Positions 5,031 to 28,611 of a DNA stretch of 64,000 nt are shown here, one piece after another. How positions within the stretch are numbered: the stretch's first letter is position 1; each line of letters opens with the position of its first letter. This stretch comes from Ciceribacter sichuanensis. Lineage in GTDB: Bacteria > Pseudomonadota > Alphaproteobacteria > Rhizobiales > Rhizobiaceae. The notes beneath the pieces were generated by a model, which made no database searches, had not been told where the DNA came from, and saw only the letters and a program-made list of their open reading frames with translations. A program made the position numbers and the translations under genes. The stretch covers positions 372,001 through 436,000 of the forward strand of contig NZ_JAMXLX010000002.1 of NCBI RefSeq assembly GCF_024055605.1, written 5' to 3'.

Positions 5031-6680
<1,650 letters not shown>

Positions 6681-9672: not shown

Positions 9673-9688
9673 CCGCAACCCGCATTTA

Positions 9689-9921: not shown

Positions 9922-10874
9922 TGTCGTCGTCCGCTACATTGGCAGATACCGCCCCCGAAAACAGGATCATGCAGGGCCTCGGACTGATGATTCTCGCCAT
10001 GCTGGTCGCTCCCTGCATCGACATCTTTTCCAAGCTTGCAACAGCCAACACCTCGCCGACCATGATCACCACCGGCCGCTTTCTGTTCCAAGGACTGTTC
10101 ATGCTGCCCATCGTTCTTGCCAATGGTACATGGCGTGATTTTTCCTGGCGGCTGAGCGGTTATCACGCCATTCGCGCCGCCGTCATCACTCTGTCGATGA
10201 TCTGTTTCGTCGCGACGCTCGCCGTCATGCAGGTCGCCGATGCAGTCGCCATCTTCTTCGTCGAACCGATCATCCTGACCGTTCTTGCCAGCATCTTCCT
10301 GAAGGAAACCATCGGCTGGCGTCGCTACACTGCCTGCGCCGTCGGTTTCCTCGGTGCTGTCATCGTCATCCGCCCGAGCTTCGAAGAAGTCGGGTTCGTC
10401 GCGGTGCTGCCCATTGTGACCGCCTGCGGCATCGCCATCTTCGCGCTGATGACGCGAGCCTTGTCGCAGCGGGAGAACCCGTGGTCGATGCAGTTCCAGA
10501 TGTCCCTATGGGGCCTGCCGATCTGCGGAGCCCTTCTCGCCTTCGGCGGCGTGACCGGTATCGAGTTTATGGCCCCTTCCATGCCTGACGGGCAGACGCT
10601 GGTCTGGTTTGTCGGCATCGGCTTTTCGGCGGCGCTTTCCGGCATTCTCGCTGTCTATGCCTACCGCGTCGCCCCCGCCTCCGTTCTCGCTCCCATGCAA
10701 TATCTGGAAATCGTGTCCGCGACCCTGCTCGGCTGGCTCGTGTTCGATGCCTTTCCCGATGCGATCAAATGGCTCGGCATCGCCATCATCATCGGTTCCG
10801 GCCTTTTCATCGTCTGGCGTGAGCGCCGCTTCTCCTCGAAGCCGGTATCCGACAGAAAACCCATTTCTCCATGA
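9918..10874 (+). CDS. DMT-superfamily transporter (EamA family)
   Basis: This 318-residue inner-membrane protein has about ten hydrophobic helices arranged as two EamA repeats (roughly residues 20-155 and 170-305). Relatives export or import small metabolites such as amino acids and their derivatives. Two in-frame ATGs (9918 and 9921) open the gene and the RBS is weak. Its stop codon overlaps the ATG of the following CoA-transferase in an ATGA arrangement, which itself overlaps the ThDP-enzyme gene. The three genes therefore form a tightly coupled operon, and the transporter probably moves the substrate or product of that enzyme pair. The specificity cannot be read from the sequence. Confidence 0.88.
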   Translation: MMSSSATLADTAPENRIMQGLGLMILAMLVAPCIDIFSKLATANTSPTMITTGRFLFQGLFMLPIVLANGTWRDFSWRLSGYHAIRAAVITLSMICFVATLAVMQVADAVAIFFVEPIILTVLASIFLKETIGWRRYTACAVGFLGAVIVIRPSFEEVGFVAVLPIVTACGIAIFALMTRALSQRENPWSMQFQMSLWGLPICGALLAFGGVTGIEFMAPSMPDGQTLVWFVGIGFSAALSGILAVYAYRVAPASVLAPMQYLEIVSATLLGWLVFDAFPDAIKWLGIAIIIGSGLFIVWRERRFSSKPVSDRKPISP

Positions 10875-13737: not shown

Positions 13738-13740
13738 TTT

Positions 13741-14640
13741 TCAGGTTCTCCGTGCGATTTCCCGGGCAACATCGATGAAGGCGCGCACGGGCGGAGGCAG
13801 ATGCCTGCGCCCGGAGAAATAAATACAAAGCCCCGGAAACGGCGGCGTCCAGTCCTCAAGCACGGCCTCCAGCAACCCGGCCGATAGCGCAGCAGCGGCC
13901 TGCCTCTCGGTCATGTAGGCAAGACCTACACCAGCGACGGCGGCCTCGAGCATGAGATCCATGTCCTGCAGCGTCATCGGCCCCTCGACATCGATCCGGC
14001 TCTCTTGGCCATGCCGTTCGAATTCCCAACGATAGATTCCCCCACTGGGCAGACGCAATCGCAGGCAAGGATACCGCAATAGATCTGTGGGCACCGAGGG
14101 TTTGCCGTAGCGCTCGAAATAACGCGGTGCGCCGAGAACCAGAAAACGCTCCTTCTCGGTCAGAGGAATGGCGACCATGTCCTGCGGTATGCTCTCCCGT
14201 AAGCGCACGCCGACATCGAAGCCCTCCTCAACAATATCCACGAGACGGCCCTCGCTCGCGACATCGACATGAACTTCAGGATAGCGACGCTGGAATTCGA
14301 CAAAAATGGGCATCAACAGCCCCGTCATTCCGCTCGGTGAAGTGTTGATTCTCAATCGCCCGCGCGGACTGGCCGCCGCTGCGGTGGCTCCCTCCATCGC
14401 ACCAGCGATATCCTTTAGCGCCGGAGAGATCTTTTCCAGAAACCGCTCTCCGGCCTCGGTCAACGATACGCTACGCGTCGTGCGGTTGAACAATCGCACC
14501 CCGAGACGGTTTTCCAGCGCCGAAATGGCGTGACTGACGGCAGAGGCGGACATGCCGAGGTCGCGGGCCGCCGCTCGGAAATTACGGGTCTCGGCGACGA
14601 CGGCCACGGCATTCAGTTCGATCAGCCCTGCCTTCTTCAT
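13741..14640 (-). CDS. LysR-family transcriptional regulator
   Basis: This 299-residue protein has an N-terminal LysR winged helix (residues about 1-62; FRAAARDLGMSASAVSHAISALENRLGVRLFNRTTRSVSLTEAG) and a periplasmic-binding-like effector domain. It belongs to the AaeR/DmlR-like branch by the RTTRSVSLTE motif. It converges on the ThDP-enzyme gene with a 3-base gap and is divergent from the SDR gene at 14744, separated by about 100 bases that contain a short palindrome. The usual arrangement implies that it controls the SDR gene and itself. The effector is unknown. Confidence 0.93.
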   Translation of the reverse strand: MKKAGLIELNAVAVVAETRNFRAAARDLGMSASAVSHAISALENRLGVRLFNRTTRSVSLTEAGERFLEKISPALKDIAGAMEGATAAAASPRGRLRINTSPSGMTGLLMPIFVEFQRRYPEVHVDVASEGRLVDIVEEGFDVGVRLRESIPQDMVAIPLTEKERFLVLGAPRYFERYGKPSVPTDLLRYPCLRLRLPSGGIYRWEFERHGQESRIDVEGPMTLQDMDLMLEAAVAGVGLAYMTERQAAAALSAGLLEAVLEDWTPPFPGLCIYFSGRRHLPPPVRAFIDVAREIARRT

Positions 14641-14677
14641 TGTTCGACTTCACTCATCATGCTGTCCGTAATTATCG

Positions 14678-14691
14678 TGCTTATCGAAGCA
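14678..14691. promoter_or_regulatory. Candidate LysR binding site between regulator and SDR gene
   Basis: The inverted repeat TGCTT-ATCG-AAGCA is the best palindrome in the 103-base divergent intergenic region. It lies 38 bases upstream of the LysR start and 53 upstream of the SDR start. It fits the LysR habit of binding a dyad between divergent genes, though the spacing is not an exact T-N11-A. Confidence 0.4.
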
Positions 14692-14743
14692 TATCCGGAA
14701 ATCTATCTCTTGCGCATCCCCAAACGCCAAAGGAGTTGGAAGC

Positions 14744-15568
14744 ATGGCAAAAACTGTCCTCATCACCGGAGCATCGTCCGGCATCGGCAAGGCGAGCGCA
14801 AAACTCTTCAGCTCTCAAGGCTTCAACGTCGTCGCCACGATGCGGAACATATCCGCCGGCGTGGAATTCAGAGAGCTGTCAAACCTGCTGGTGACACGCC
14901 TCGACCTTGAAGATCAGGCCAGCATACAGGCAGCGATTGAGGAAGGGATCGAACGCTTCGGCAGGATCGATATTCTGGTGAATAATGCCGGCTACGGTCT
15001 CTACGGCGTCTTCGAGGCGATCCCGCGGGAAAAGCTCCAGCAGCAGTTCGACGTGAATGTCTTCGGCGTGATGGACACCATCCGCGCCATCCTTCCCCAT
15101 TTTCGCGAGAACCGCGGCGGCACCATCGTCAATCTCAGTTCCGGTGCAGGACACTTCACCCTGCCGATGATCTCGGCCTATTGCGCAAGCAAGTTCGCGC
15201 TGGAAGGTTTCACCGAGGCTCTGTCCTATGAGTTGCTGGCGCTCGGCATCGGCGTCAAGCTGGTCATTCCCCATGGCGGAGTGGCGGAAACCTCATTCCA
15301 GCAAAGATCGGCCGCCGATTTCGCTCGGGACGGCACGCCGGCCGAATATGAGACCTTTCTCGAAAGAAGCGTCGCCACCTTCACTCGTCTCGGCGGGGCC
15401 GTGGCCATGACCTCCTCCGATGTCGCAAAGGTCGTATTCGAGGCGGCGACCGACGGAAAACCGCAGCTGCGCTACTTTGTCGGCGATGCCCAAAGCGGAT
15501 GGCTGAAAGCCCGCAAGGAACTCGAGGAAAACGACTACATCGCCTTCATGCGCCAAAAATTCGCCTGA
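14744..15568 (+). CDS. Short-chain dehydrogenase/reductase (classical SDR)
   Basis: This 274-residue classical SDR has the cofactor motif TGASSGIG (residues about 8-15), NNAG near residue 80, a catalytic serine in VNLSSGAG and an active-site YCASK. The arginine in ATMRN after the second beta strand suggests NADPH preference. The extended C-terminus (about 30 residues beyond the minimal fold) is typical of the SDR group resembling retinol/oxidoreductase-like enzymes. AAAGGAG precedes the start. It is probably controlled by the divergent LysR gene; the substrate is unknown. Confidence 0.9.
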   Translation: MAKTVLITGASSGIGKASAKLFSSQGFNVVATMRNISAGVEFRELSNLLVTRLDLEDQASIQAAIEEGIERFGRIDILVNNAGYGLYGVFEAIPREKLQQQFDVNVFGVMDTIRAILPHFRENRGGTIVNLSSGAGHFTLPMISAYCASKFALEGFTEALSYELLALGIGVKLVIPHGGVAETSFQQRSAADFARDGTPAEYETFLERSVATFTRLGGAVAMTSSDVAKVVFEAATDGKPQLRYFVGDAQSGWLKARKELEENDYIAFMRQKFA

Positions 15569-15581
15569 CCGGCAGAACGAA

Positions 15582-15616
15582 AAAGGCCGACGCATCAAGA
15601 GGATGCGCCGGCCTTT
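15582..15616. terminator. Bidirectional terminator between the SDR gene and ridA-like gene
   Basis: A 14-bp stem with one A/C mismatch (AAAGGCCG / CGGCCTTT outer, CGCATC / GATGCG inner) encloses a 5-base loop. It lies 14 bases past the SDR stop and 20 bases past the end of the convergent RidA-family gene, with A and T tracts flanking both sides. Confidence 0.85.
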
Positions 15617-15635
15617 CGAATCAACTTCTCAAGGA

Positions 15636-15977
15636 TCAGAGAGCAGCGGTGACGACGAACTCGACCTTGTAGTCCGGAGTCGCGAGCGCGGCCTGGCTGG
15701 TGGCGCGTGCCGGCGGGTTCTTCGGGTCGATCCATGCTTCCCAGACGGCATTCATTTCGCCGAAGGTCGACATGTCCGAGAGGTAGATGATTGTCTGCAG
15801 GATCTTGGACTTGTCCGAGCCGGCGGCGGCAAGCAGGCGCTCGACTTCAGCGAGAGCCGACTTCGACTGGTCGGTCACGGACACGCCATCGCCGACCTGG
15901 CCAGCCAGATAAACGGTGTTGCCGTGAACGACTGCGCCGCTCATGCGGGCGCCCGGCTCGATACGCTTGATGGTCAT
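15636..15977 (-). CDS. RidA (YjgF/YER057c/UK114) family protein
   Basis: This 113-residue protein is of the Rid family, whose archetype hydrolyses reactive enamine/imine intermediates released by PLP enzymes. Family landmarks are GNTVYLAGQVGDG near residue 20-32, the central SKILQTIIYLSDM and the PPARAT segment with the conserved arginine. The C-terminal VEFVVTAAL retains the usual glutamate. It is slightly shorter than E. coli RidA and lacks some of its residues, so it may be a RidA-like subgroup rather than the canonical deaminase. It is followed, in transcription order, by the SDR/RidA shared terminator. The DUF442 gene lies 60 bases upstream on the same strand and may share its transcript. 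Confidence 0.9.
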   Translation of the reverse strand: MTIKRIEPGARMSGAVVHGNTVYLAGQVGDGVSVTDQSKSALAEVERLLAAAGSDKSKILQTIIYLSDMSTFGEMNAVWEAWIDPKNPPARATSQAALATPDYKVEFVVTAAL

Positions 15978-16037
15978 GGGAAATACTCCTGTTGCTGTAA
16001 AAGGAAATCGACCGGCCTGAACGGCCGGAAGGACAGA

Positions 16038-16376
16038 TCAGCCACGCAGCGGCAGCGTCTTCTGATAGGTATTGGTGGAGCGCGCACCGGAACGGCAGTA
16101 GCCGAGCATCGGACGGTCGAAATCGTCGAGCGCGTCCATCATGCCGCTGATGGCCTCCTCTGTCACGCCCATGGGGCCGACCGGCACATGCTTGATCTTG
16201 ATGCCGAGCTCCTCGGCCCGGGCAGCGATGTCGGCGAAAGCCGGCTGGCCCGGCTCCTCGCCATCGGGCCGATGGCAAACGATCGACTTGAAACCCTGCG
16301 CCTTGATCTCGTCGAGATCGTCGACCGTGATCTGGCCGGAGACGGAATACTCTTCGTTGATCTGCCTGATATCCAT
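16038..16376 (-). CDS. DUF442 / TIGR01244-type phosphatase-like protein
   Basis: This 112-residue protein has the Blh-like DUF442 domain related to dual-specificity phosphatases. The CxxxxxR signature appears as YCRSGARS, with an upstream VCHRPDGEE segment and the GPMGVT loop typical of the family. In rhizobia and their relatives such domains occur in sulfide and persulfide metabolism proteins and are often fused to Blh hydrolases. Here the domain stands alone. Several ATGs cluster at the start (16385, 16382 and 16376); I favour 16376 because GAGGAG lies about 10 bases upstream. No sulfide-related genes are adjacent. Confidence 0.85.
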   Translation of the reverse strand: MDIRQINEEYSVSGQITVDDLDEIKAQGFKSIVCHRPDGEEPGQPAFADIAARAEELGIKIKHVPVGPMGVTEEAISGMMDALDDFDRPMLGYCRSGARSTNTYQKTLPLRG

Positions 16377-16459
16377 CGTCATCATGCTCCTCGAATGAAT
16401 GTGGCAAACACTTAAGGTGCCATGTCGGAGGCGTCAATCAAAGTTGTGCCTAAGCCGGT

Positions 16460-17290
16460 TCAAACAAACGAGAAAGTCAGGGCGTATTCGCGGCTCTCGC
16501 CCGGAGCAAGTTCGACGAGTTCCCCGCGTTTCGCAAGTTCGGCGCGCGGCTCCCAGCGATGGGAAACCGGTTCGATGCCCAGCACATGGGCAGGAGCGGC
16601 CTGATTGCGCCAGATCTGCAGGAAAGGCAGGCCATCGGTGCGGAAACGGACCCGAAGCGTCTTGCCGCCGATTGCCGCGATGGGGCCGAGCCGGACTTCC
16701 GCCCAGTCTTCATCGCCGGCAGGCACGCAGAACACGCCGCCATTCCCCTCGCCGAATGCCCAGGGAAAACCACCCTTTTCCAGCATGGCGCCCTCCAGAC
16801 GCACATCATCATCGAAAAGCCGGGCGCCGATATTCATGTGGTACATCAGCATGGCCGGAAACGGCTGCGCACCTGTATTCGTAACCCGGTCGGAAAGCTG
16901 TACCTCGCCGGTCGCCCCGTCGATCCGCCAGTGACGCTCCAGCCGGGCGCTGCCGCCATCGGCTAGTCTTGCGTCGATAATCGCGCGGGCCTCCGCGTCC
17001 CCTTCTTCGAGGGAGGACGAAACGACCTCCGCCGGATGGGACGAAAACGAGCCATGCAACGGAAAGCGAACGCCGTCCTGGCCGGGAACCGGCTCCGGAT
17101 GGCGGATGTGGTCGGGACCGCAGGTGAAGAGAAAGCCTTCGAGCGAATGATCAATGCGCGGATCGCCGTCATCGGGGATAGCCCGGCCGGGGGCAATATT
17201 GACCCCGTCGACAACGCATGCGCCGATGTCAAACACCGATCCCTCGTCAAGCGAAAGCTTCGGCCCCTTGCCGCCACTGAATTCGATCAC
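16460..17290 (-). CDS. Aldose 1-epimerase-like protein (DUF4432 type)
   Basis: This 276-residue beta-sandwich protein of the galactose-mutarotase-like superfamily matches the DUF4432 pattern. It has RIDHSLEGFLFTCG near the N-terminus, FPLHGSFSS, MLMYHMNIG in the centre and LGIEPVSHRWEPR near the C-terminus. The H and E residues in these segments occupy positions used for sugar binding and ring opening in mutarotases. The gene starts with GTG overlapping the MarR stop (GTGA), with GAGGA about 9 bases upstream. The coupling suggests that the MarR protein regulates it. The sugar substrate is unknown. Confidence 0.82.
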   Translation of the reverse strand: MIEFSGGKGPKLSLDEGSVFDIGACVVDGVNIAPGRAIPDDGDPRIDHSLEGFLFTCGPDHIRHPEPVPGQDGVRFPLHGSFSSHPAEVVSSSLEEGDAEARAIIDARLADGGSARLERHWRIDGATGEVQLSDRVTNTGAQPFPAMLMYHMNIGARLFDDDVRLEGAMLEKGGFPWAFGEGNGGVFCVPAGDEDWAEVRLGPIAAIGGKTLRVRFRTDGLPFLQIWRNQAAPAHVLGIEPVSHRWEPRAELAKRGELVELAPGESREYALTFSFV

Positions 17291-17769
17291 TGCCCGCCAT
17301 CCTCGTCAGCCGGCGATGGCATGCGCAGATGTCCCGTCGCCATCGCATCCTCGATGCCGGACAATCCGTCATCGAGCGCCTTGAGGTACGGCAAATCCAC
17401 CGCCCCTTCAAGCCAGTGCTGATAGTCGGCGGCACAGCGCTTCAGCTCGGTGTAGGCCGCCTGTCCGCTGTCGGTCAGCGTCAGGATCTCAAAACGCCGG
17501 TCCACCGTGTCGCGCTGCCGGCCAAGCCAGCTGCGATCCTCCAGCGCCTTCACGGCGCGGCTGACCTTGGTCTTTGTCAGACCGGCATGCCCGGAAATCG
17601 CCTTTGCGGTTCCATGCAGCCCTTCACCCAGCGACCAGAGCACCTGCCACTCCGTCCAGGAAACCTCCCCGCCGACATCGCACTGCCGCATGAAATGGCC
17701 GCTAAGCCTTTCCGCCGCACGATTTAACCGATAAGGCAAAAAGCTCTCGATATTGAAATGATTTCGCAT
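17287..17769 (-). CDS. MarR-family transcriptional regulator
   Basis: This 160-residue winged-helix protein has the MarR core at about residues 30-125: WTEWQVLWSLGEG, then the recognition helix region AISGHAGLTKTKVSRAVKALEDRSWL, and the wing around RQRDTVDRRFEILTLTDSG. The start at 17769 is chosen because GGGGGGA lies immediately upstream; a longer frame to 17841 lacks an RBS. The stop overlaps the start of the epimerase-like gene, so both are one operon. It is divergent from the L,D-transpeptidase gene 169 bases away. Confidence 0.92.
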   Translation of the reverse strand: MRNHFNIESFLPYRLNRAAERLSGHFMRQCDVGGEVSWTEWQVLWSLGEGLHGTAKAISGHAGLTKTKVSRAVKALEDRSWLGRQRDTVDRRFEILTLTDSGQAAYTELKRCAADYQHWLEGAVDLPYLKALDDGLSGIEDAMATGHLRMPSPADEDGGQ

Positions 17770-17938
17770 CGTCCCCCCGCGACGAGATAAAAAACAGCCG
17801 GCTGTCCGATCCTCACTCCCGACAAAACCGACTCTGCTCAAAAATGGATTTTAAGCCATTCTTCACCATGAATTCACCTTTTCCACATTAGTGTCAAATT
17901 TATCGCGTTTTTCCCATTGGAAACAAGGAAATCGAATC

Positions 17939-19285
17939 GTGAGCGATATGAAGAAAGCCGGCCTGTTACTTGCGTCTGTGGCATTGATCCCGGCCCTCCT
18001 CGCCATGCCCGCGCACGCGCGCGACCCCTACGGCTATCGCCCGAGCTCGACCATCCTCGTCACACCGGAAGGCGACATCCTCGGCTACACCCCCGAGCAG
18101 AACGAAGTCGTGATCAGCCGTGACCGCATGGGTCGCCGCGTTCTTTTCGATCACTACGGCAACCTGATCGCCACGGAAGTTCCGGCGGAAAGCTATTTCC
18201 CGCGCGGCGCGCAGCAGCGCGATCACCCGGAAACCGCTTACGACAATTACCCACCGCAGCCGCGCGGATGGAACGACGATCAGGTCGTCACCGGCACGAT
18301 CCCCGACGCCAACACCATCGATCGTCAGCCGCTCGACGAGCCGGCCCAGGACATGCCCTATGGCGGTCCAGACATGGCGCCGCCGACCGAGCAGGCAGCG
18401 CCCCGCACAGTGACGCCCGATATCCCGGTGAAGAGCAACCTGTCACAGCTCGAAATCACCGCTCTCCAGACCTTCCTCGATCGCGAGGGCATTTCACCCG
18501 GCGTCATCGACGGCAAGATGGGTCAGAACGTCAACAAGGCGCTGGTGGCTTATCAGCAGATGACCGGCGAGACGCTCGACCCGAACAATGCCGATGACAT
18601 TCTGGAGCGCCTGCGGCTCTCCGGCGGTCTGGCGATCATCTCCTACACGATCACGCCCGGCGATGCAGCCGGCCCCTACGTCGCGTCGATCCCGGAAGAT
18701 TACAGCCAGAAGGCTCAGTTGCCGGCGCTGTCCTTCACCTCCACTACCGAGATGCTGGCGGAGAAGTTCCACATGGACGAGGCCTACCTCAAGGCGCTCA
18801 ACCCGGGCGTCGACTTCACCGTTCCGGGCACGATCATCAAGGTCGTCGATCCGGGCAAGGGCAAGCAGGGGCAGGTCGCAAAGATCGTTGCCGACAAGGG
18901 GCTGAAGCAGGTTTTCGCCTACGCCGCCGACGGCTCGCTGATCGCTGCCTATCCGGCCAGCATCGGCTCGGCCGACACCCCCTCGCCGTCCGGCACGGTG
19001 ACAGTGGAGCGCGTCGCCTTCGATCCTGGCTACACCTACAATCCGAAGGTCAACTTCCAGCAGGGCGCAAACGACAGGGTTCTCGCCATCCCGCCCGGCC
19101 CGAACGGCCCTGTCGGCACCGTCTGGATGGCGCTGTCCCGCCCGACCTATGGCATCCACGGCACGCCGGAGCCTTCCAAGATCGGCCGCACCCAAAGCCA
19201 CGGCTGCATCCGCCTCACCAACTGGGATGCAACCGAACTCGCCAAGATGACCAAGCCAGGCGTAACCGTCGAATTCATTGACTGA
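17939..19285 (+). CDS. L,D-transpeptidase with peptidoglycan-binding domain (YkuD family)
   Basis: This 448-residue exported enzyme forms 3-3 cross-links in peptidoglycan or attaches proteins to it. It has a signal peptide (MKKAGLLLASVALIPALLA, cleaved near AHA-RD) and a proline-rich, acidic spacer. A peptidoglycan-binding helix bundle follows at about residues 170-215 (ITALQTFLDREGISPGVIDG), then a YkuD domain (about 330-448) with the catalytic motif HGTPEPSKIGRTQSHGCIRL (nucleophile Cys in SHGCIR). GTG at 17939 has AAGGA 9 bases upstream; ATG at 17948 is the alternative. A strong terminator follows. It is probably a housekeeping cell-wall gene and is multiplied in rhizobial genomes. Confidence 0.92.
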   Translation: MSDMKKAGLLLASVALIPALLAMPAHARDPYGYRPSSTILVTPEGDILGYTPEQNEVVISRDRMGRRVLFDHYGNLIATEVPAESYFPRGAQQRDHPETAYDNYPPQPRGWNDDQVVTGTIPDANTIDRQPLDEPAQDMPYGGPDMAPPTEQAAPRTVTPDIPVKSNLSQLEITALQTFLDREGISPGVIDGKMGQNVNKALVAYQQMTGETLDPNNADDILERLRLSGGLAIISYTITPGDAAGPYVASIPEDYSQKAQLPALSFTSTTEMLAEKFHMDEAYLKALNPGVDFTVPGTIIKVVDPGKGKQGQVAKIVADKGLKQVFAYAADGSLIAAYPASIGSADTPSPSGTVTVERVAFDPGYTYNPKVNFQQGANDRVLAIPPGPNGPVGTVWMALSRPTYGIHGTPEPSKIGRTQSHGCIRLTNWDATELAKMTKPGVTVEFID

Positions 19286-19394: not shown

Positions 19395-20114
19395 TCACGC
19401 TGCGCTGCGAACGACCTTGAACAGCCGGCGTGGCTGCTGTGAACGCACGATGCGAACCGGCAGCAACTGCATCACCTCGCCGGCAAACAAGCGAGCATTT
19501 TCGCGGGCCTTGTCGAGATTGCTGATCTTTGTGGGGTCCATACTGTAGAGGGTGCCACCACAGTCGAAGATCTCGCGATAGGCGGTGCGCTCGGCGATCG
19601 GCGTATTAATGACGTTAACGCCGCGGGCGGCCAGAAGCCCTTTGATGGTCAGAAGAGCGCGCGTGGTCACCATTGAAGTGACGCGAGTCAGAACGACGGA
19701 ATGGTCGATCTTCAGCTTGCCGGTTTCTTCCATCAGCTTGATGAGGTCGAGAATCTGCGCACCCCCGCGCGCATCCATCGCGCAACCCTGAACTGGGATC
19801 ATCACATGGTCGGAAAGCCCGATTGCGGTCGTCACGATGGCATCGCGTGCACCGGCAAGATCGATGATCGTATAATCGGCCGTACGGGCCAACTCGCGGA
19901 TATGCCCCTGCAGGGAGGCGACCGTCACTTCGGAAATCACTTCAATATTATGCTGCGGACCCGAAAGCTCATGCCACTGCGTGATCCAGCGCTGCGGATC
20001 GGCGTCCAGGATGCCGACACGATATCCCTGCTGGGCAAGCTCGGTAGCGAGAAGAAGGGCTGCGGTGGTCTTGCCGGCTCCACCCTTGGCATTGGCAAAC
20101 GAGATGACTGGCAT
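19395..20114 (-). CDS. Orphan ParA/MinD-family ATPase
   Basis: This 239-residue protein has the deviant Walker A motif KGGAGKTT at residues 10-17. The switch regions are LDADPQRWITQW and the YTIIDLAGARD segment, in which the family's usual DTPG is DLAG. ParA-family ATPases position DNA, chemoreceptor arrays or other cargo by patterning on the nucleoid or membrane. There is no parB, repB or centromere-like repeat next to it, so plasmid partition is unlikely. A cargo-positioning role is possible but only inferred. The start has AGGGA about 6 bases upstream. Convergent with the L,D-transpeptidase gene. Confidence 0.88.
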   Translation of the reverse strand: MPVISFANAKGGAGKTTAALLLATELAQQGYRVGILDADPQRWITQWHELSGPQHNIEVISEVTVASLQGHIRELARTADYTIIDLAGARDAIVTTAIGLSDHVMIPVQGCAMDARGGAQILDLIKLMEETGKLKIDHSVVLTRVTSMVTTRALLTIKGLLAARGVNVINTPIAERTAYREIFDCGGTLYSMDPTKISNLDKARENARLFAGEVMQLLPVRIVRSQQPRRLFKVVRSAA

Positions 20115-20751: not shown

Positions 20752-20787
20752 ATAATGGCCCGACCTTCTTCAAAGTCGGGCCATTAT
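20752..20787 (-). terminator. Hairpin downstream of the Fe-alcohol dehydrogenase gene
   Basis: A 13-bp perfect stem (ATAATGGCCCGAC / GTCGGGCCATTAT) with a 10-base loop lies 22 bases past the stop of the alcohol dehydrogenase gene. It likely ends the minus-strand catabolic operon despite a poor U tract. Confidence 0.65.
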
Positions 20788-20808: not shown

Positions 20809-21954
20809 TCAGAAGCAGTCTTCGTACAGCGCCTTGGTGTTTTCCAGCGTCATCTTGACCGGGTTGCCGCCAGCGCTCGGATCCTCGATCGCCATAGCCG
20901 ACATCTCCTCGATCCGGCTCTTGTCGAGGCCGAGCGCGCCCAGGGTTTCGGGAACACCGAGTTCAGCGCGCAGCTTCAGGACCCAGTTGTAGAAGCCGTC
21001 GAAACCGCCTTCGATGCCGAGATAGGCGGCGGCGCTGGCGATCTTGCCTTCGATGGCAGCGCGATTAAAGCGCAGCACCGCCGGCATCACCACGGCGTTG
21101 GTCATGCCATGATGGGTGTTGTAGATCGCGCCGATCGGGTGCGAGATCGCGTGGATCGCGCCGAGACCCTTCTGGAAGGAAACGGCACCCATGGCAGCCG
21201 CTGACATCATGTGGGTGCGAGCCTCGATATCCGTACCGTCATGGAAGGCACGCGGCAGGTATTCCTTGACGAGACGCATGCCTTCGAGCGCGATACCCTG
21301 GCTCATCGGATGGTAGAACGGTGAGGAATAGGCTTCCAGGCAATGGGCGAGCGCATCCATGCCCGTGCCTGCCGTAATCGACTTCGGCATGCCGACGGTC
21401 AGCTCGGGATCGCAGATGACGACGCCCGGCAGGAACTTCGGATGGTAGATGATCTTCTTAACATGGGTCTTCGAATTGGTAATGACCGATGCGCGGCCGA
21501 CTTCGGAGCCGGTACCGGCCGTCGTCGGGACGGCGACGATCGGCGCAATGCCTTCGATGCTGGCGCGGGTCCACCAGTCGCCGATGTCCTCGAAGTCCCA
21601 GACGGGCCGCGTCTGGCCAACCATGAAGGCGACGCACTTAGCGAGATCGAGGCCAGACCCGCCGCCGAAGGCGACGACGCCGTCATGACCGCCATCGCGA
21701 AACGCCTTGATGCCGGCTTCGAGGTTGATGTCGTTCGGGTTCGGATCGACATCGGCGAAAATCGCCCGTCCCAAGCCGCCTTCGGCAAGGATGTCGAGCG
21801 CGCCCTGCGTGATCGCCATCGAGGCAAGGCCCCTGTCGGTGATCAGGAGCGGCTTCTTCATGCCGAGCGACTTGCAGGCGTCGGCGAGTTCCTTGATCCG
21901 GCCGCTGCCCATCTTGATGGCGGTGGGATAGCTCCAGTTTGCGACAATGCTCAT
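20809..21954 (-). CDS. Iron-containing (group III) alcohol dehydrogenase
   Basis: This 381-residue Fe-ADH oxidises primary alcohols to aldehydes with NAD. It has the nucleotide motif VAFGGGSGLDLAK near residue 95-107, the family motif VPTTAGTGSEVG and the metal-binding region GTGMDALAHCLEAY. The second metal region GLGAIHAISHPIGAIYNTHHG supplies the histidines. The ATG overlaps the stop of the aldehyde dehydrogenase gene (ATGA), so the two are translationally coupled, and an alcohol to aldehyde to acid sequence is implied. It is the last gene of the minus-strand cluster. Within the proposed pathway it would oxidise the hydroxyl of a gamma-glutamyl amino alcohol; this is inference. Confidence 0.92.
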   Translation of the reverse strand: MSIVANWSYPTAIKMGSGRIKELADACKSLGMKKPLLITDRGLASMAITQGALDILAEGGLGRAIFADVDPNPNDINLEAGIKAFRDGGHDGVVAFGGGSGLDLAKCVAFMVGQTRPVWDFEDIGDWWTRASIEGIAPIVAVPTTAGTGSEVGRASVITNSKTHVKKIIYHPKFLPGVVICDPELTVGMPKSITAGTGMDALAHCLEAYSSPFYHPMSQGIALEGMRLVKEYLPRAFHDGTDIEARTHMMSAAAMGAVSFQKGLGAIHAISHPIGAIYNTHHGMTNAVVMPAVLRFNRAAIEGKIASAAAYLGIEGGFDGFYNWVLKLRAELGVPETLGALGLDKSRIEEMSAMAIEDPSAGGNPVKMTLENTKALYEDCF

Positions 21955-23336
21955 TTCGTGACTTTCTTGAGGTGGTAGGATTTCGGACGGGTAAGGTTGT
22001 GGAAACCGATGACAGATAGCGAACCGCCGCGACCGGTTTCCTTGACGCCCGTCCAGCACAGGGCCGGGTCGAGATAGTCGGCACGGTTCATGAAGACGGT
22101 ACCGGTTTCGATTTCGCGGCCAAGACGCCCTGCCCGTTCGGGGTCCTGCGTCCAGAGCGATGCAGTAAGGCCGTACTGGCTGTCGTTCATCAGCGCCAGC
22201 GCTTCCTCGTCGTTCTTGACCTTCATGATGCCGACGGCCGGGCCGAAGGTTTCGTCGCGCATGAATGACATGGAGTGATCGACGTCCACCAAAACCTGCG
22301 GCATCAGATAGGCGTGGCCGTCATCCTGGGGGAAGAGCTTCGGATCTACGAGCGCCTTGGCGCCCTTGGCAACCGCTGCTGCGATCTGTTCGCGCACATG
22401 CGCTGCGAAACGGCGATGCGCCATCGGGCCGAGCGTCGTTTCCGGATCGAGCGGGTTGCCGAGCTTGTAGTTCGAAACCCAGGCGACCGACTTCTCGACG
22501 AATGCGTCGTACAGGCTCTCATGCACGTAGATGCGCTCGATGCCGCAGCAGCACTGTCCGGAATTGTAGGTAGCGCCATCCATCAGCGTATCGACGGCGG
22601 CGTCGAGATCGGCGTCCTCCATCACATAGCCCGGATCCTTGCCGCCGAGTTCGAGGCCGAGGCCTGCGAAGGTGGAGGCAGCAGCGCGCTCGATGGAGCG
22701 ACCGCCTTCGACCGAACCGGTGAAATTGATGAAGTTGAAGCTGCCGGTCGCAATCAGCGCCGAGGTGGTCGCGTGATCGAGGAAGACGTTGACGAAGACG
22801 TCATCGGGAACGCCGGCCTCGACGAAGGCGCGAACAAGCCGTTCGCCGACCAGAAGCGTCTGCGTCGCATGCTTGATGACAACAGTGTTACCGGCCATCA
22901 GCGCCGGTGCAACGGTGTTGATCGCCGTCATGTAGGGGTAATTCCACGGCGCAATGACGAAGACGACACCATGCGGCTCGCGCTCGATACGGCGCTCGAA
23001 GCTGCCGCTGTTCTCGATCACGAGCGGAGCCAGCGCATCGGCGGCAATGGAGGCCACATAGTTCGAACGCTCATTGAAGCCCTTGTATTCGCCACCGTAG
23101 CGGACCGGACGACCCATCATCCAGGCCAGTTCCGGCACGACTTCGTCGGACATCTCGTTGAGGCGGGCGACGCCCTTGAGCACGAGTTGCACGCGCTCTT
23201 CCAGCGGACGACGAGCCCAGGCCTTCTGGGCTTTGCGAGCCCGGGCCACGGCAGCGTTTGCCGCCTCCAGCGACATGGCCTCGCGCTCGGCAAACACCGA
23301 GCCGTCGACCGGCGAAATGCATTGAATCATTGTCAT
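21951..23336 (-). CDS. Aldehyde dehydrogenase family protein
   Basis: This 461-residue NAD(P)-dependent aldehyde dehydrogenase has the Rossmann region FVIAPWNYPYMTAINTVAPA, the FTGSVEGG turn and the general-base glutamate in LELGGKDPG. The nucleophilic cysteine lies in the cysteine-rich SGQCCCGIERI and the C-terminal motif is FGPAVGIM. The start at 23336 has AAGGAG 8 bases upstream. It is coupled to the Fe-alcohol dehydrogenase. A 282-base gap containing two hairpins separates it from the upstream GS-like gene, so it may be partly attenuated or have its own promoter. It is shorter than betaine-aldehyde or PuuC-type enzymes (about 490-500 residues). Confidence 0.93.
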   Translation of the reverse strand: MTMIQCISPVDGSVFAEREAMSLEAANAAVARARKAQKAWARRPLEERVQLVLKGVARLNEMSDEVVPELAWMMGRPVRYGGEYKGFNERSNYVASIAADALAPLVIENSGSFERRIEREPHGVVFVIAPWNYPYMTAINTVAPALMAGNTVVIKHATQTLLVGERLVRAFVEAGVPDDVFVNVFLDHATTSALIATGSFNFINFTGSVEGGRSIERAAASTFAGLGLELGGKDPGYVMEDADLDAAVDTLMDGATYNSGQCCCGIERIYVHESLYDAFVEKSVAWVSNYKLGNPLDPETTLGPMAHRRFAAHVREQIAAAVAKGAKALVDPKLFPQDDGHAYLMPQVLVDVDHSMSFMRDETFGPAVGIMKVKNDEEALALMNDSQYGLTASLWTQDPERAGRLGREIETGTVFMNRADYLDPALCWTGVKETGRGGSLSVIGFHNLTRPKSYHLKKVTK

Positions 23337-23425
23337 TCCATTGCTCCTTGAAAGCCCCTCAGGCCAGTAGCCCGACACTCGATGTCACGCCATTGGCCAA
23401 GATGGCGCAGCCGCTCAACGCTGAT

Positions 23426-23505
23426 CGATCCCGCCCGCCGGAAAGCGGTGCGGGATCGCGTGTCAGGCTACACCTGCTCCCCTGTTTCATGTCGATTCAC
23501 AGGGG
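23426..23505 (-). other. Two hairpins in the gap between GS-like and aldehyde dehydrogenase genes
   Basis: The 282-base gap (23337-23618) holds a 9-bp stem CGATCCCGC / GCGGGATCG (23426-23458) and a 7-bp stem CCCCTGT / ACAGGGG (23479-23505). No ORF with an RBS is visible. They could terminate part of the GS-like transcript or act as processing or stability elements; no U tract is present. Confidence 0.45.
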
Positions 23506-23618
23506 CATGTCTTGCAGTCTATTGCGATTTGGCCGACACCGAAATCTTCCGAAAGTAATATGTCTGCCGATTGTCGATGGTACCAGGCGAAGATCTTTCG
23601 CCGGATGGAGAACGGGCA

Positions 23619-24989
23619 TCAGGCTCGCTCGAAACCGCGCGCGACCTCCCAGTCGGTTACCCGGCGATCGTATTCCTCCTGCTCCCACTCGGCGGCCCGG
23701 ACGTAGTGATCGATCACGTCGTTGCCGAACGCATCCCGCAGCATGGCCGAGCCGGAAAGCGCCTCGGTCGCTGCACGCAGCGTCCGCGGGATCTCTCGAA
23801 CCCCCTTCGCACCGTAGGCGTCACCGGTGAACGCGGGCTCCAGCTCCCTCTTCTTCTCGATCCCGTCGATACCCGCTGCCAGCAAAGCCGCCATGGCGAG
23901 ATAGGGATTGAGGTCGGAGCCGCCGACACGGCATTCAACACGGATCGCCTTGGTTTCTTCTCCGCACATGCGATAGCCTGCGGTGCGGTTGTCCTTGGAC
24001 CAGATCGCCTTGGTCGGCGCGAAAGTGCCCGCCATGAAGCGTTTGTAGGAATTGATGTAGGGCGCAAGGAAATAGGTGATCTCGCTCGCATGAGAGAGAA
24101 GGCCCGCCATGTAATGCTTCATCGTGGACGACATGCCGTGTTCACCGTTCTCATCGAAGAACAGCGGCGTCTTGCCATCGGAGGTCCACAGCGACTGATG
24201 GATGTGCGACGAAGAACCCGCGGCATTGTAGTGCCACTTGGCGAGGAAGGTGATCGCCTTGCCGCGCGACCAGGCAATTTCCTTGCAAGCGTTCTTGATG
24301 ATTGCGTGACGGTCAGCCATGGTCAGCGCGTCGGCATAGCGAACATTGATTTCCTCCTGCCCGGCCGAAGCCTCGCCCTTGGAATTCTCGACCGGAATGC
24401 CCGCGGCCTGCAGGCCCTTGCGGATCGCCCGCATCACATCTTCTTCCTTGGTGGTCTGGAAGATGTGGTAGTCTTCGTTGTAGCCGGAGGCGAGCTGCAG
24501 GTCGCGGTAACCCGACACGCGGGCATCGTCATAAGTCTGGTCGAACAGGAAGAATTCGAGCTCGCTGGCCATATAGGCCTTCATGCCCATCGCCTCGAGA
24601 CGGGCGACTTGCTTCTTCAAGATCGCGCGGGGCGAATGGGGTACTTCGTCATGGGTGTGGTGATCCAACACGTCGCACAGAACGAGCGCCGTGCCTTCGA
24701 GCCACGGAACGCGACGAAGCGTCGAAAGGTCGGGCTTCATCGTATAGTCGCCATAACCCTTTTCCCAGCTCGTGGACTTGTAGCCCGATACGGTCTCCAT
24801 CTCCATGTCGGTCGCAAGCAGATAATTGCAGCTGTGAGTTTCCTTGTAGGCGCTCTCGATAAAGTATTCCGCCTGGAAACGCTTGCCCATCAGGCGGCCC
24901 TGCATGTCGACCTGGCATGCCAGCACCGTATCGATGCGGCCGTCGGCGACGTCCTTTTTCAAATCGTCGAATGTGTAAATCATGCTCAT
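23619..24989 (-). CDS. Glutamine-synthetase-like gamma-glutamyl amine ligase
   Basis: This 456-residue protein has the type I GS fold: beta-grasp N-terminus, then the catalytic barrel with ASELEFFLF, NAAGSSSHIHQSLW, NRTAGYR-like ATP-binding residues and the late RVECRVGGSDLNPYLAMAA. It belongs to the PuuA/GlnA-like branch, which ligates glutamate to amines (putrescine, ethanolamine, isopropylamine), rather than GlnA1. It lacks the adenylylation-loop tyrosine motif of canonical GlnA as far as I can see. It sits with an amine-type permease, alcohol and aldehyde dehydrogenases and an amidohydrolase, which fits glutamylation of an amine to trap it for oxidation. AGGCGG precedes the ATG. Confidence 0.88.
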   Translation of the reverse strand: MSMIYTFDDLKKDVADGRIDTVLACQVDMQGRLMGKRFQAEYFIESAYKETHSCNYLLATDMEMETVSGYKSTSWEKGYGDYTMKPDLSTLRRVPWLEGTALVLCDVLDHHTHDEVPHSPRAILKKQVARLEAMGMKAYMASELEFFLFDQTYDDARVSGYRDLQLASGYNEDYHIFQTTKEEDVMRAIRKGLQAAGIPVENSKGEASAGQEEINVRYADALTMADRHAIIKNACKEIAWSRGKAITFLAKWHYNAAGSSSHIHQSLWTSDGKTPLFFDENGEHGMSSTMKHYMAGLLSHASEITYFLAPYINSYKRFMAGTFAPTKAIWSKDNRTAGYRMCGEETKAIRVECRVGGSDLNPYLAMAALLAAGIDGIEKKRELEPAFTGDAYGAKGVREIPRTLRAATEALSGSAMLRDAFGNDVIDHYVRAAEWEQEEYDRRVTDWEVARGFERA

Positions 24990-25118
24990 ATTGACCGCCT
25001 ACAAGGTGAAAATACGTCTCCGATCGGCGATGCTTGCGCCGAATCGGGGCCTGGTCTCATTTTTCGGCCCGGAACAGCTTGACCGCTCCGGGCCGCATCT
25101 CAACTGCGCCACGTTAGC

Positions 25119-26672
25119 TCAGACAACTTCACCAACGGCCTTTTCAGCGGCAGCAATCTGTGCCTGCCGGCGAGCGACTTCATCGCCGATCGGCGGACCC
25201 TTGAAACGCTTGTTTTCGAAAGCTAACCAAACGATTGCCGTCAGCACCAGAAAGCCCACGGTGATCGGCAATGCCCAGTCGTTCGGCGGCTGGATGCCGA
25301 TGTAGAAGATCACCGCCATCGACACGATGACAAGGACGGAGACCAGCCGATAGCCGGTGACGCCCATACTCCACGGACCCATCTTCGACCACTTCGGCGT
25401 ACCGATCGCCACGAAGCCAAGCGCGATCGGCAAGGCGAAGGAAAGGAAGAGAAAGATGACCGTGCACGACACGACGATCGAGTAGGCCGGCGTTCCGGCA
25501 ATGGTGATCGCCGAGGTGAACCAGACGAACAGCACCGAAAGGATGGAACCCGTCCAGATGGCAGAAACCGGCGTGCGGTATTTCGGGCTCACCTTCGACA
25601 GCGCCGCAGAACCGGGCAGACCCTTGTCACGCGAGAAGGCAAAGATCATACGGGACAGCGAGGTCACCGTCGCGAGGCCGCACAGGAACTGGGACACGAA
25701 GATGAGGAAGTACAGTATCTCCTTCATCGTCGGATTGACCTGCGCATCCATTGCCCAGAAGAACACGTTCCAACCCTGCTTGGCGGCATCGTCCATGTTC
25801 GGGATCATCAGCACGAACGAGCAAAGCATCACATAGCCGAACAATGCCGACCAGATGACCGAGCTCACCATGCCCTTGGGCACGGAATGGGCAGCCTTGA
25901 CGGTTTCCTCCGACGTATGGGCCGAGGCGTCGTAGCCGGTGATGGTATAGATCGGCAGCAGCAGTCCGAGCAAAAACGCCATGCTGCCGGAAACCGCGGT
26001 CGGCCACACCAGAGAGGCGCCTTCCGTTCCGGTGTAGTTGGCAAAGGTGAAGAGCCTGCCGATTTCATAGCTCGGCGCGGAAATCAGGCACACGACCGTC
26101 AGGAGAATGGCGGTGGCGAAGATCAGATAGCCCGAGAAGTCGGTAAGCTTCGCGGTCAGGCCGATACCGAAATGATTGATGAGCGCCTGCAGGCCGGTAA
26201 TCAGCGCCACGAAGACGACGCGGTGCGTCAGCGTGTCCTCCAGGCCGATATAGGAGCCGAAAGCGCCGAAGAAGAAATAGAACGTACCGACGTTGATGGC
26301 ACCGAGAACCGTCACAAGGCCGAGCAGGTTGAGCCAGGCAGCCAGCCAGCCGGTGAACCGGTTACCGAGGATCGAACCCCAGTGATAGAGCCCTCCCGCC
26401 GTGGGATAGGCCGAGCCGATCTGGGCAAGCCCCAGGGCGAACAGACCCGAAATCAGGCACCCCAGCGGCCAGCCGAGGCCGATGGCCGCCCCGCCCGCTC
26501 CGGAGGTCGCCTGCCCGAGCGAGTTGATGCCGCCCGACAGGATGCAGATGATCGAAAAGGAGATCGCGAAGTTCGAGAACGAACTCATGCGACGCTCTAG
26601 CTCCTGAGCGTAACCCATGGAGTGCAATATATGAATATCGTGCTTTTTGTCCTGCTCGGTATAATCTGACAT
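25119..26672 (-). CDS. APC-superfamily amino acid/amine permease
   Basis: This 517-residue inner-membrane transporter has about 12 helices. The N-terminal helix FSNFAISFSIICILSGGINS and the following glycine-rich segment, plus YDASAHTSEETVKAAHSVPKGM, are typical of the amino acid/choline/GABA permease branch of the APC family. Relatives carry GABA, choline or polyamines by cation symport. The ATG at 26672 has GGGGGA 6 bases upstream; the TTG at 26684 is unlikely. It lies between the amidohydrolase and GS-like genes on the same strand (gaps of about 110-130 bases), so it probably imports the amine processed by the cluster. Confidence 0.9.
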   Translation of the reverse strand: MSDYTEQDKKHDIHILHSMGYAQELERRMSSFSNFAISFSIICILSGGINSLGQATSGAGGAAIGLGWPLGCLISGLFALGLAQIGSAYPTAGGLYHWGSILGNRFTGWLAAWLNLLGLVTVLGAINVGTFYFFFGAFGSYIGLEDTLTHRVVFVALITGLQALINHFGIGLTAKLTDFSGYLIFATAILLTVVCLISAPSYEIGRLFTFANYTGTEGASLVWPTAVSGSMAFLLGLLLPIYTITGYDASAHTSEETVKAAHSVPKGMVSSVIWSALFGYVMLCSFVLMIPNMDDAAKQGWNVFFWAMDAQVNPTMKEILYFLIFVSQFLCGLATVTSLSRMIFAFSRDKGLPGSAALSKVSPKYRTPVSAIWTGSILSVLFVWFTSAITIAGTPAYSIVVSCTVIFLFLSFALPIALGFVAIGTPKWSKMGPWSMGVTGYRLVSVLVIVSMAVIFYIGIQPPNDWALPITVGFLVLTAIVWLAFENKRFKGPPIGDEVARRQAQIAAAEKAVGEVV

Positions 26673-26783
26673 GACGTCCCCCAATTAACCGATCGCCCGC
26701 GGGATTGCGGACAATTCCGTTGGTCTCGCCATCGTTCTTTTCGATGGCTGGTTTGCAGATCACCTGCTCCCCGGGGTCATTTC

Positions 26784-27557
26784 TTATTGCTGGCAGGTGC
26801 CGATCGCCGCGCGGATCAGTCCTGCCAGATAGTCGGCCATAACCCCTTGGCCGACTTCATCTGCGATCAGGTCGTTTCGAACCTCGATCATTACGTTGAG
26901 GTGCCCGTGCGGAAGCCCGTGCAGCCTGAGAGTATGAGTAACGCCGTCCTCGGGGCCGTACGGCGAATTCCGTTCGACACGGAAAGGACCGCCCTCCGCC
27001 GCCGCCAGCATGGCATCGGCCAGCCGGCTGTCCGTATCGTGGAGAATGCCGATCTCGACCGCGCGCGGCTTGCCGAGATAGACCGGCGTGAAACTGTGCA
27101 TCGTCACCAGCACCGTCTGCCGCCCCCCTTCCGTCCGGTCGGCAATGATCGCCGCAATCCGGTCGTGAAACGGCACGTAGAGGGCGGCCGTGCGGGCGTA
27201 GCGCTCCGCCGGGGACAGATCCCGGTTGCCGGGAATTTCGTAGATCTCGCTCACCTCCGGCATGGCGCCGGCTGATTCCGGAGGCCGGTTGCAATCGTAG
27301 ACCAGCCGGGAAAACCGCTGATGGACGAGGGTCGCATCGAGCTTGACCGAAAGAGCCTCTGCTACGGCAAGCGCACCAGGATCCCAGGCGATGTGGCTTG
27401 AAAGCGCTTCTGCATCCAGTCCGAGATCGCCGACGCTTGCGGGCAGCCTTCTGGAGGCATGTTCACAGATGAGAAGTACGGCCCCGACACCCTGTGGGTT
27501 GTCGACGCCTGCAGCTTCGCCTTCTGCTGCCGTCAGAATATCCGACCTCAAAAGCAT
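26784..27557 (-). CDS. N-formylglutamate amidohydrolase family protein
   Basis: This 257-residue zinc-dependent hydrolase of the FGase family has CEHASRRLP (metal ligand region), HIAWDPGA, FSRLVYDCNRPP, VTMHSFTP and a late MIEVRNDLI. HutG of histidine degradation belongs here, but no hut genes are nearby. In this cluster it could hydrolyse the gamma-glutamyl amide made by the GS-like ligase, releasing glutamate and an amino acid. That role is inferred and would be new for the family. The ATG has GGGGGA about 8 bases upstream. It is the first gene of the minus-strand cluster and divergent from the RpiR regulator. Confidence 0.85.
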   Translation of the reverse strand: MLLRSDILTAAEGEAAGVDNPQGVGAVLLICEHASRRLPASVGDLGLDAEALSSHIAWDPGALAVAEALSVKLDATLVHQRFSRLVYDCNRPPESAGAMPEVSEIYEIPGNRDLSPAERYARTAALYVPFHDRIAAIIADRTEGGRQTVLVTMHSFTPVYLGKPRAVEIGILHDTDSRLADAMLAAAEGGPFRVERNSPYGPEDGVTHTLRLHGLPHGHLNVMIEVRNDLIADEVGQGVMADYLAGLIRAAIGTCQQ

Positions 27558-27594: not shown

Positions 27595-27608
27595 GAAGAG
27601 AATTCTTC
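27595..27608. promoter_or_regulatory. Candidate RpiR operator 1
   Basis: GAAGA-GAAT-TCTTC is an imperfect palindrome in the divergent region between the amidohydrolase and RpiR genes, 38 bases upstream of the amidohydrolase ATG. The core GAGAATTCTTC shares 8 of 11 positions with a second site at 27637. Confidence 0.5.
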
Positions 27609-27636
27609 ACGATTAAGAGACTGTCAATCCACTCCT

Positions 27637-27650
27637 GAAAATTTCTCTTC
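27637..27650. promoter_or_regulatory. Candidate RpiR operator 2
   Basis: GAAAATTTCTCTTC resembles operator 1, with centres about 39 bp apart, close to four helical turns. A related GAAAATTTTCTC occurs upstream of the DhaL-like gene at 32763, hinting at a shared regulator. Confidence 0.45.
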
Positions 27651-27660
27651 ACCTCCCCGA

Positions 27661-27690
27661 TTGACACACAGGTTCGCGACAGGGATAAAT
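27661..27690 (+). promoter_or_regulatory. Candidate sigma-70-type promoter for the RpiR gene
   Basis: TTGACA (27661-27666) is followed 17-18 bases later by GATAAAT, a reasonable -35/-10 pair 49 bases upstream of the RpiR start codon. Confidence 0.5.
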
Positions 27691-27738: not shown

Positions 27739-28611
27739 TTGCCGAACGCTTCGAAAAGAGTCGCGGACGTCATACAGGCGCGTTTGGAAAACCTGACGCG
27801 TGCGGAACGGCAGTTGGCCGACAGCTTGCTGGACAACTATCCCGTTTCCGGGCTGGGCAGCATCACGACAGTCGCGGAAAATGCCGGCGTCTCGACGCCG
27901 ACGGTTGCGCGCATGGTGCAGAAACTCGGCTATAGGGGATATGCGGAATTCCAGTCCCACCTGCATCAGGAACTCGAAGCGACACTCTCGAACCCGATCG
28001 CCAAGCACGATCGCTGGGCCTCCAATGCGCCCGGAACGCATATTCTCAACCGTTTCGCCGAAGCGGTGATGAACAATATGCGCCAGAGCCTTGGCGAACT
28101 TGATCCGGCTTCTTTTGACGAGGTTGCCCGGCTGTTGGCCGATCGGCGCCGCAACCTCTATTTCGTCGGCGGACGCATCACCGGCGCTCTCGCCGAGTAC
28201 TTCTTCACCCACATGCAGGTCATCCGGCCGAAGACGACCCTGATGTCTTCGAACGCCAGCGCCTGGCCGCAGCATGTGCTCAACATGAATCCCGGCGACG
28301 TGCTGGTGATCTTCGATATCCGCCGCTACGAGGCGGACATGGCAACACTGGCGCAGGTCGCCAGGACGAGCGGTGTAGAGATCGTGCTCTTCACCGATGA
28401 GTGGGGCTCTCCGGTTTCGAAGCATACCAGGCACTGTTTCAAGGTGGCGGTGGAAGCACCGTCCGCCTGGGACTCGTCAGTCGTCACATTATTCGTGGTG
28501 GAAGCATTGATAGAGGCAGTCCAGAGTTCGTCGTGGGCAGAGACCCGTGAGCGCATGAACACACTGGAAGGACTGTTCGAACAGGCTCGCCTGTTTCGGA
28601 AACCACGCTAG
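27739..28611 (+). CDS. RpiR/MurR-family transcriptional regulator (HTH-SIS)
   Basis: This 290-residue protein has an N-terminal RpiR helix-turn-helix (about residues 1-78; VAENAGVSTPTVARMVQKLGYRGYAEF) and a SIS domain (about 120-260; NLYFVGGRITGALAEYFF). Such proteins normally sense phosphosugars, but many alphaproteobacterial members sit beside amine or amino-acid gene clusters. The start codon is TTG with AAGGA 7 bases upstream; no nearby in-frame ATG is better. It is divergent from the amidohydrolase-permease-GS cluster and upstream of an ABC operon, so it could control either or both. Confidence 0.9.
   Translation: MPNASKRVADVIQARLENLTRAERQLADSLLDNYPVSGLGSITTVAENAGVSTPTVARMVQKLGYRGYAEFQSHLHQELEATLSNPIAKHDRWASNAPGTHILNRFAEAVMNNMRQSLGELDPASFDEVARLLADRRRNLYFVGGRITGALAEYFFTHMQVIRPKTTLMSSNASAWPQHVLNMNPGDVLVIFDIRRYEADMATLAQVARTSGVEIVLFTDEWGSPVSKHTRHCFKVAVEAPSAWDSSVVTLFVVEALIEAVQSSSWAETRERMNTLEGLFEQARLFRKPR

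Follow-up and report, generated by a model that had tools for sequence, protein, structure and literature searches.

A six-gene divergent unit in a 64,000-nucleotide stretch of the genome of Ciceribacter sichuanensis (hereafter, the window) appears to be a rhizobial copy of the published gene set for the use of ethanolamine through gamma-glutamyl intermediates, a reading to which we assign a probability of about 0.87. That is, ethanolamine would be imported, glutamylated, oxidized to the acid, and cleaved to glycine and glutamate. The unit consists of a plus-strand gene for an RpiR-family regulator and, opposite it, five minus-strand genes, namely those for an N-formylglutamate amidohydrolase (FGase)-family protein, an APC permease, a glutamine synthetase (GS)-like ligase, an aldehyde dehydrogenase (ALDH), and an iron-containing alcohol dehydrogenase (Fe-ADH). 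It resides on contig C12 of a 5.48-Mb genome that is 99.3% complete. A first-pass annotation of the window had read these genes as a pathway of import, glutamylation, oxidation and hydrolysis; as an outline this stands as the best reading, matching published protein families and a published operon, but the pathway is not novel.

Gene content and predicted reactions

All six genes lie where that annotation had placed them, as confirmed by a Pfam scan of ten proteins of the region; closer assignments were judged by the curated NCBIfam cut-offs. The permease (25119–26672, minus strand; AA_permease_2, PF13520, 2.9e-48) is the predicted amine importer and would bring in ethanolamine. The ligase (23619–24989, minus strand; Gln-synt_C, PF00120, 2.8e-103) would act as a gamma-glutamylethanolamide synthetase, forming gamma-glutamylethanolamide from ATP, glutamate and ethanolamine. 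This product would be oxidized to the aldehyde by the Fe-ADH (20809–21954, minus strand; PF00465, 1e-46, and PF25137), a predicted gamma-glutamylethanolamide dehydrogenase, and further to gamma-glutamylglycine by the ALDH (21951–23336, minus strand; PF00171, 2.3e-119). The FGase-family protein (26784–27557, minus strand; PF05013, 1.6e-43) is the candidate gamma-glutamylglycine hydrolase, which would release glycine and glutamate. The two dehydrogenases and the PF05013 amidohydrolase are thus all encoded within the operon. Glutamate would be a reusable carrier, and the amino-aldehyde would thereby never occur in free form. The regulator (27739–28611, plus strand; HTH_6, 8.5e-16, and SIS, 1.6e-24), whose gene adjoins that of the hydrolase, is the predicted repressor of the cassette.

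Three of the reading frames extend beyond the starts used here, which were chosen by reading the sequence. The Fe-ADH frame extends to 22059, with the ATG at 21954 the likelier start; from this start, the gene would share 4 bp with the end (stop) of the ALDH gene. The ALDH frame extends to 23378, with a likely start at the ATG at 23336, which has AAGGAG upstream, and the permease frame opens at a TTG at 26684, the ATG at 26672 being likelier. The Fe-ADH scores below every curated NCBIfam cut-off, the top model being 4-hydroxybutyrate dehydrogenase (345.7 against 500).

Conservation of the cassette

The cassette is a conserved unit and far from a chance association. We compared the best 80 of at least 576 ligase relatives from a scan of genome contigs; these are rhizobial loci with ligases 83–92% identical to that of the window, under titles such as Rhizobium, Ensifer, Sinorhizobium, Neorhizobium, Ciceribacter and 'Rhizobiales bacterium'. 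The ligase and the ALDH are present in all 80, the Fe-ADH in 78, the FGase and the RpiR regulator in 77 each, and a permease of the window type in 67. Chance is set aside because the order and orientation RpiR(-) FGase(+) ligase(+) ALDH(+) ADH(+) are kept in 76 of the 80 loci, while the other four (L015, L033, L040 and L056) are truncated by contig ends. The RpiR gene is divergent from the FGase gene in all 76 loci that could be checked whole.

Relation to published pathways

The families of the window recur in published clusters. Table 2 of a 2022 review (PMC9397018) gives PF00120, PF00465, PF00171 and PF05013 for Chromohalobacter salexigens; the gamma-glutamylglycine amidohydrolase is there assigned to PF05013, 'formylglutamate amidohydrolase'. 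The C. salexigens set matches the window in these four families and differs in its importer, which uses the binding protein Csal_0678 of a tripartite ATP-independent periplasmic (TRAP) transporter. In Phaeobacter sp. MED193, Westermann 2023 (PMC10132767) describes the operon RpiR-GGAH-EtoVWX-ETAGA-GAADDH-GETADH (MED193_10021 to 10056), in which the last two genes are for an aldehyde dehydrogenase and a gamma-glutamylethanolamide dehydrogenase. Phosphorylethanolamine raises the hydrolase, the binding protein, the glutamylase and both dehydrogenases, and the binding protein has a Kd of about 7.9 µM for ethanolamine. Judged from the paper's gene list, not from sequences, this operon is like the window, with RpiR next to an amidohydrolase, followed by a transporter, a gamma-glutamylase and two dehydrogenases; its transporter (EtoVWX), however, is of the TRAP type, whereas that of the window is an APC permease. 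The 'gamma-glutamylglycine amidohydrolase' gene beside RpiR is known here from that paper by name, without a Pfam family. The paper also points to C. salexigens and A. tumefaciens C58, crediting Vetting 2015. The MED193-type order with TRAP genes is also found in P. denitrificans, Ruegeria B32, Qingshengfaniella and strain SC52, and these relatives carry a gene annotated as N-formylglutamate amidohydrolase at the hydrolase position. The GlnA4 cluster of Streptomyces coelicolor (Krysenko 2019, PMC6529630) resembles the window in that ethanolamine is gamma-glutamylated, with oxidation and hydrolysis proposed to follow, the last step by a formylglutamate-amidohydrolase-family enzyme (SCO1615); it differs in the short-chain dehydrogenase (orf2) and glutamine amidotransferase (orf5) named in its figure legend.

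Because the gene set, transporter apart, equals that of published clusters predicted to convert ethanolamine to glycine, the cassette is probably just one more instance of a known pathway. An FGase-family enzyme as final hydrolase had initially been taken to be undescribed. This was mistaken, since the gamma-glutamylglycine hydrolase step is described in all three papers; PMC9397018 (in Table 2) and PMC6529630 name the FGase family, and PMC10132767 has an amidohydrolase gene.

Ligase and hydrolase

The ligase is a PF00120 protein of the pathway type and not a glutamine synthetase. It is 66.7% identical to PDB chain 5dm3, which we take to be a C. salexigens protein, and only 28.9% identical to the genome's own GlnA. 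Nine further GS-family proteins are encoded in the genome. One of them, which matches weakly (55.5 bits), was omitted; the remaining eight, among them true GlnA, are 24–29% identical to the ligase. The GlnA stretches FDGSS and GYEAP, which presumably hold ammonium-site residues, are changed in the ligase, GYEAP being replaced by GTFAP, and a flap glutamate of GlnA is absent. The curated models for GlnA, type III and gamma-glutamylputrescine synthetase are all out of reach, the score against the GlnA equivalog being 270.2 bits for a cut-off of 429.15. Five actinobacterial ligases are 43.7–49.2% identical to that of the window.

The hydrolase is 66.3% identical to Atu2144 (structure 2ODF), by its prefix presumably a protein of A. 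tumefaciens C58; a limited literature search on 'Atu2144' found nothing. Its two closest proteins are 93% (Rhizobium daejeonense) and 92% identical, from which the host probably belongs to the Rhizobiaceae; the four other FGases of its own genome are 20–30% identical. A GVTHTL stretch is common to the window FGase, Atu2144 and the FGases of three plasmid cassettes, and is absent from the other four of the genome. We predict that this protein hydrolyzes gamma-glutamylglycine.

Substrate and product

The slot between the FGase and ligase genes holds one of three transporter types in the 80 rhizobial loci: an APC permease of the window type in 67 (48–90% identical to the window permease), a TRAP transporter in 9, and a second type of APC permease in 4. 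Of the nine TRAP binding proteins, one (that of locus L016) was compared with the PDB, where it matches 4uab with 498 bits; this entry is Csal_0678 of C. salexigens, a structure with ethanolamine (PMC12410723), and Csal_0678 is likewise ethanolamine-bound according to PMC4646407. Seven of the nine, L016 included, were aligned together with those of four named relatives, and all are 59–83% identical to that of L016. All four permeases of the second APC type score 363.8–373.8 bits against TIGR00908, the ethanolamine permease model. The slot is therefore filled in 13 of the 80 relatives by a TRAP transporter (4uab-like in the one compared) or by a TIGR00908-like APC permease. That three transporter types exchange within an otherwise unchanged cassette argues for a single substrate.

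The nature of the product is suggested by cassettes on plasmids. Thirty-five plasmid records carry a ligase relative, and we viewed 14 of the neighborhoods, one of them unannotated. The FGase, ligase, ALDH and Fe-ADH occur together in 9 of the 14, and in 3 of these 9 the genes after the cassette are for the use of glycine or glyoxylate, namely bhcBCD in Paracoccus pantotrophus, bhcR and bhcABC in Aminobacter, and glyA with serine ammonia-lyase in Salipiger. In strain SC52, a malate synthase G gene adjoins the RpiR gene. The downstream genes point to a two-carbon amino acid as the product, which favors ethanolamine as the substrate over alaninol or aminopropanol. Ethanolamine is thus the likeliest substrate. 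Among the compounds put forward in the first-pass annotation, it is the one backed by the transporters and the glycine genes, whereas alaninol, 3-aminopropanol, isopropylamine and putrescine find no comparative support.

Weighing of alternatives

Several observations count against the ethanolamine assignment. The published pathway is itself 'demonstrated' in the text of PMC10132767 yet 'predicted' in a figure title, its steps are 'proposed' in PMC9397018, and PMC6529630 describes that of C. salexigens as 'predicted in an in silico approach'. The window permease is not of a type with ethanolamine evidence; its best model is TIGR00907, with 205.4 bits far below the cut-off of 598.3, and it thus provides no substrate evidence of its own. 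The TIGR00908 scores of the second-type permeases fall just below the cut-off of 381.75. No homologues of bhc or glyA were found in the fetched flanks of the 80 rhizobial loci (0/80). Of the nine plasmid cassettes with all four enzymes, two (P. pantotrophus and Aminobacter) lack a slot transporter, and two more (Ruegeria conchae and Salipiger) have neither such a transporter nor an RpiR gene in view; the R. conchae cassette has a DeoR-type regulator and an EamA transporter. Lastly, in a class-wide draw of 289 genomes, 31, counting the source genome, have a ligase match of E 1e-120 or better, and in the neighborhoods of 28 of the 30 others FGase and RpiR genes lie beside the ligase in only 8, and an Fe-ADH gene in 21. 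Ligase relatives hence occur in other settings too, and the ligase taken by itself is a weaker guide to the pathway. Five FGase-less ligase loci (L145, L146, L149, L156 and L158) gave no coherent alternative pathway in a Pfam scan of 20 open reading frames, a part of those present.

The same chemistry could in principle act mainly on a different short-chain amino alcohol, for instance L-alaninol or 3-aminopropanol, to yield alanine or beta-alanine. A pathway for isopropylamine and L-alaninol does use gamma-glutamylation, and the window permease, as noted, is unlike both transporter types with ethanolamine evidence. The ethanolamine receptor CqsR, moreover, also binds L-alaninol and serinol (PMC12410723). 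We nevertheless regard another amino alcohol as improbable, because the exchange of transporters in an unchanged cassette points to one substrate, and because the downstream genes of the three plasmid relatives use glycine or glyoxylate, not alanine or beta-alanine. Less probable again, to the point of being very hard to sustain, is a Puu- or Hut-like reading, in which the ligase, permease and FGase serve the breakdown of polyamines or histidine and free aldehydes are the substrates of the dehydrogenases. The ligase is weakly similar to gamma-glutamylputrescine synthetase (PuuA), and the FGase belongs to the Pfam family of HutG, but the scores are far below the curated cut-offs (210.6 bits against 650 for the former, 20.7 against 278.75 for the HutG N-formylglutamate deformylase model), and both readings were rejected on this ground. 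Furthermore, the ten region proteins scanned include neither PuuB nor PuuD, a PF07722 hydrolase (244.6 bits) lies elsewhere in the genome, on contig C25, and the genome has four other FGases, all distant from that of the window. The first-pass remark that a PuuB-type oxidase is lacking thus holds for those ten proteins, no genome-wide search for PuuB having been made. The Eut route (EutBC, ethanolamine ammonia-lyase) has the same substrate and releases ammonia and acetaldehyde. It was rejected since EutB was not found in the genome (0/1; the control was positive in E. coli only, 1/14), in agreement with the earlier statement that eut genes are missing.

Predicted regulation of the operon

We predict that the RpiR regulator represses the operon through two palindrome-like sites, whose starts are 42 bp apart and which flank the -35 box of the operon. 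Site B, TGAAGAATTCTCTTC, is at 27595–27609, and site A, TGAAGAGAAATTTTCAG, at 27635–27651, both given on the minus strand. The predicted -35 box of the operon, TTGACA (27622–27627, minus strand), was recognized by eye, and its TTGAC is invariant in 25 non-redundant stretches. A second TTGACA (27661–27666, plus strand) is the predicted -35 box of the regulator gene; on the other strand its GTCAA is conserved at 1.6–2.0 bits per position. The two boxes flank site A, both pointing outwards.

In 81 intergenic stretches, i.e., those of the window, 77 rhizobial loci and 3 plasmid loci, site A fits in full in 56, site B in 73, and the spacing of 42 bp holds in 72; as the patterns were read from these same stretches, the counts are not an independent test of the operators. 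The mean information is 1.66 bits at site A, 1.87 at site B and 0.62 elsewhere in the 25 stretches, figures biased towards the motifs by anchoring on site A and selecting for the spacing. These 25 derive from the 71 of 78 stretches (window plus 77 rhizobial) that have the 42-bp spacing and enough flank, thinned to less than 85% identity. With up to one mismatch, site B has a single match in the 5.48-Mb genome, at the cassette, and site A has two, namely an exact one at the cassette and another with one mismatch; from these occurrences, the regulator looks dedicated to the cassette. A TGAA-N8-TTCA pair spaced 42–44 is present in 3 of 14 further intergenic stretches, with none in 11, where shuffling expects 0.29 stretches with any such site; the 14 include one (L179) that is not a cassette. 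A consensus scan gave promoters and terminators at shuffle level (2 against 2.6 and 7 against 7.1, respectively) and reported neither TTGACA box. A limited literature search found no paper on an RpiR operator for ethanolamine genes.

Flanking features and other ligase loci

Directly 3' of the Fe-ADH stop, a hairpin with a 13-bp stem (20752–20787), found by eye, is a possible end of the operon; it has no immediate T run and was not reported by the terminator scan. Homologues of two neighboring genes adjoin the cassette in many of the 80 rhizobial loci, that for a YkuD L,D-transpeptidase (17891–19285, plus strand) in 73 and that for a ParA-family ATPase (19395–20114, minus strand) in 64. Neither has an obvious link to ethanolamine.

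Other relatives of the ligase lie in different surroundings. On plasmid pBPHY02 of Paraburkholderia phymatum (L098, 1–7359), a ligase 61% identical to that of the window is accompanied by an enzyme annotated as 2-aminoethylphosphonate transaminase, a pyridoxal phosphate-dependent transferase, a desaturase, a PuuD-type hydrolase, a LysE exporter and a homoserine O-succinyltransferase. We take this to resemble a rhizobitoxine-type cluster, in which glutamylation by the ligase could protect serinol; a limited literature search found nothing that joins rhizobitoxine, serinol and glutamine synthetase. Distant ligase relatives occur with a PuuD-type hydrolase, an ALDH and a short-chain dehydrogenase/reductase-type reductase on an Arthrobacter U41 plasmid (L099), and with a 'glucose 1-dehydrogenase' and the ethanolamine permease 'eat' on a Thermomicrobium roseum plasmid (L100); from these two, it seems that unrelated enzymes can take the place of the FGase and the Fe-ADH. 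A plasmid of Rhizobium CB3171 (L136, 2990–12319) combines a 52% identical ligase with an FGase, an aminotransferase, an APC permease, an ALDH and an N,N-dimethylformamidase-like gene, with no Fe-ADH in view, and possibly serves a different amine. The source genome itself has a locus on contig C25 (L172, C25:331181–350191, at 4475–17997 within it) where genes for a second GS-like ligase and a distinct FGase are found together with those for a class-III aminotransferase, an Fe-ADH and an ABC importer; this may be a further pathway that handles an amine through gamma-glutamyl intermediates.

Implications

What is new here are the interchangeable transporters, the link to glycine and the predicted two-palindrome RpiR operator. 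The label 'N-formylglutamate amidohydrolase' beside a GS-like gene of this kind, as in the rhizobial loci, now has a probable meaning, and the FGase gene is thereby connected with a published pathway in which a headgroup of membrane lipids is put to use. The bhc and glyA neighbors make the fate of the carbon testable, and the predicted operator does the same for regulation. More speculatively, and with the odds somewhat against it, the cassette may be a plug-in kit for ethanolamine, in which a fixed core of enzymes is combined with any of three importers, a dedicated RpiR repressor responds to a gamma-glutamyl intermediate and forms a loop between two operators separated by four helical turns, and the whole is, in some species, directly linked to the beta-hydroxyaspartate cycle. 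If so, ethanolamine would be a full carbon source in the species that have this link.

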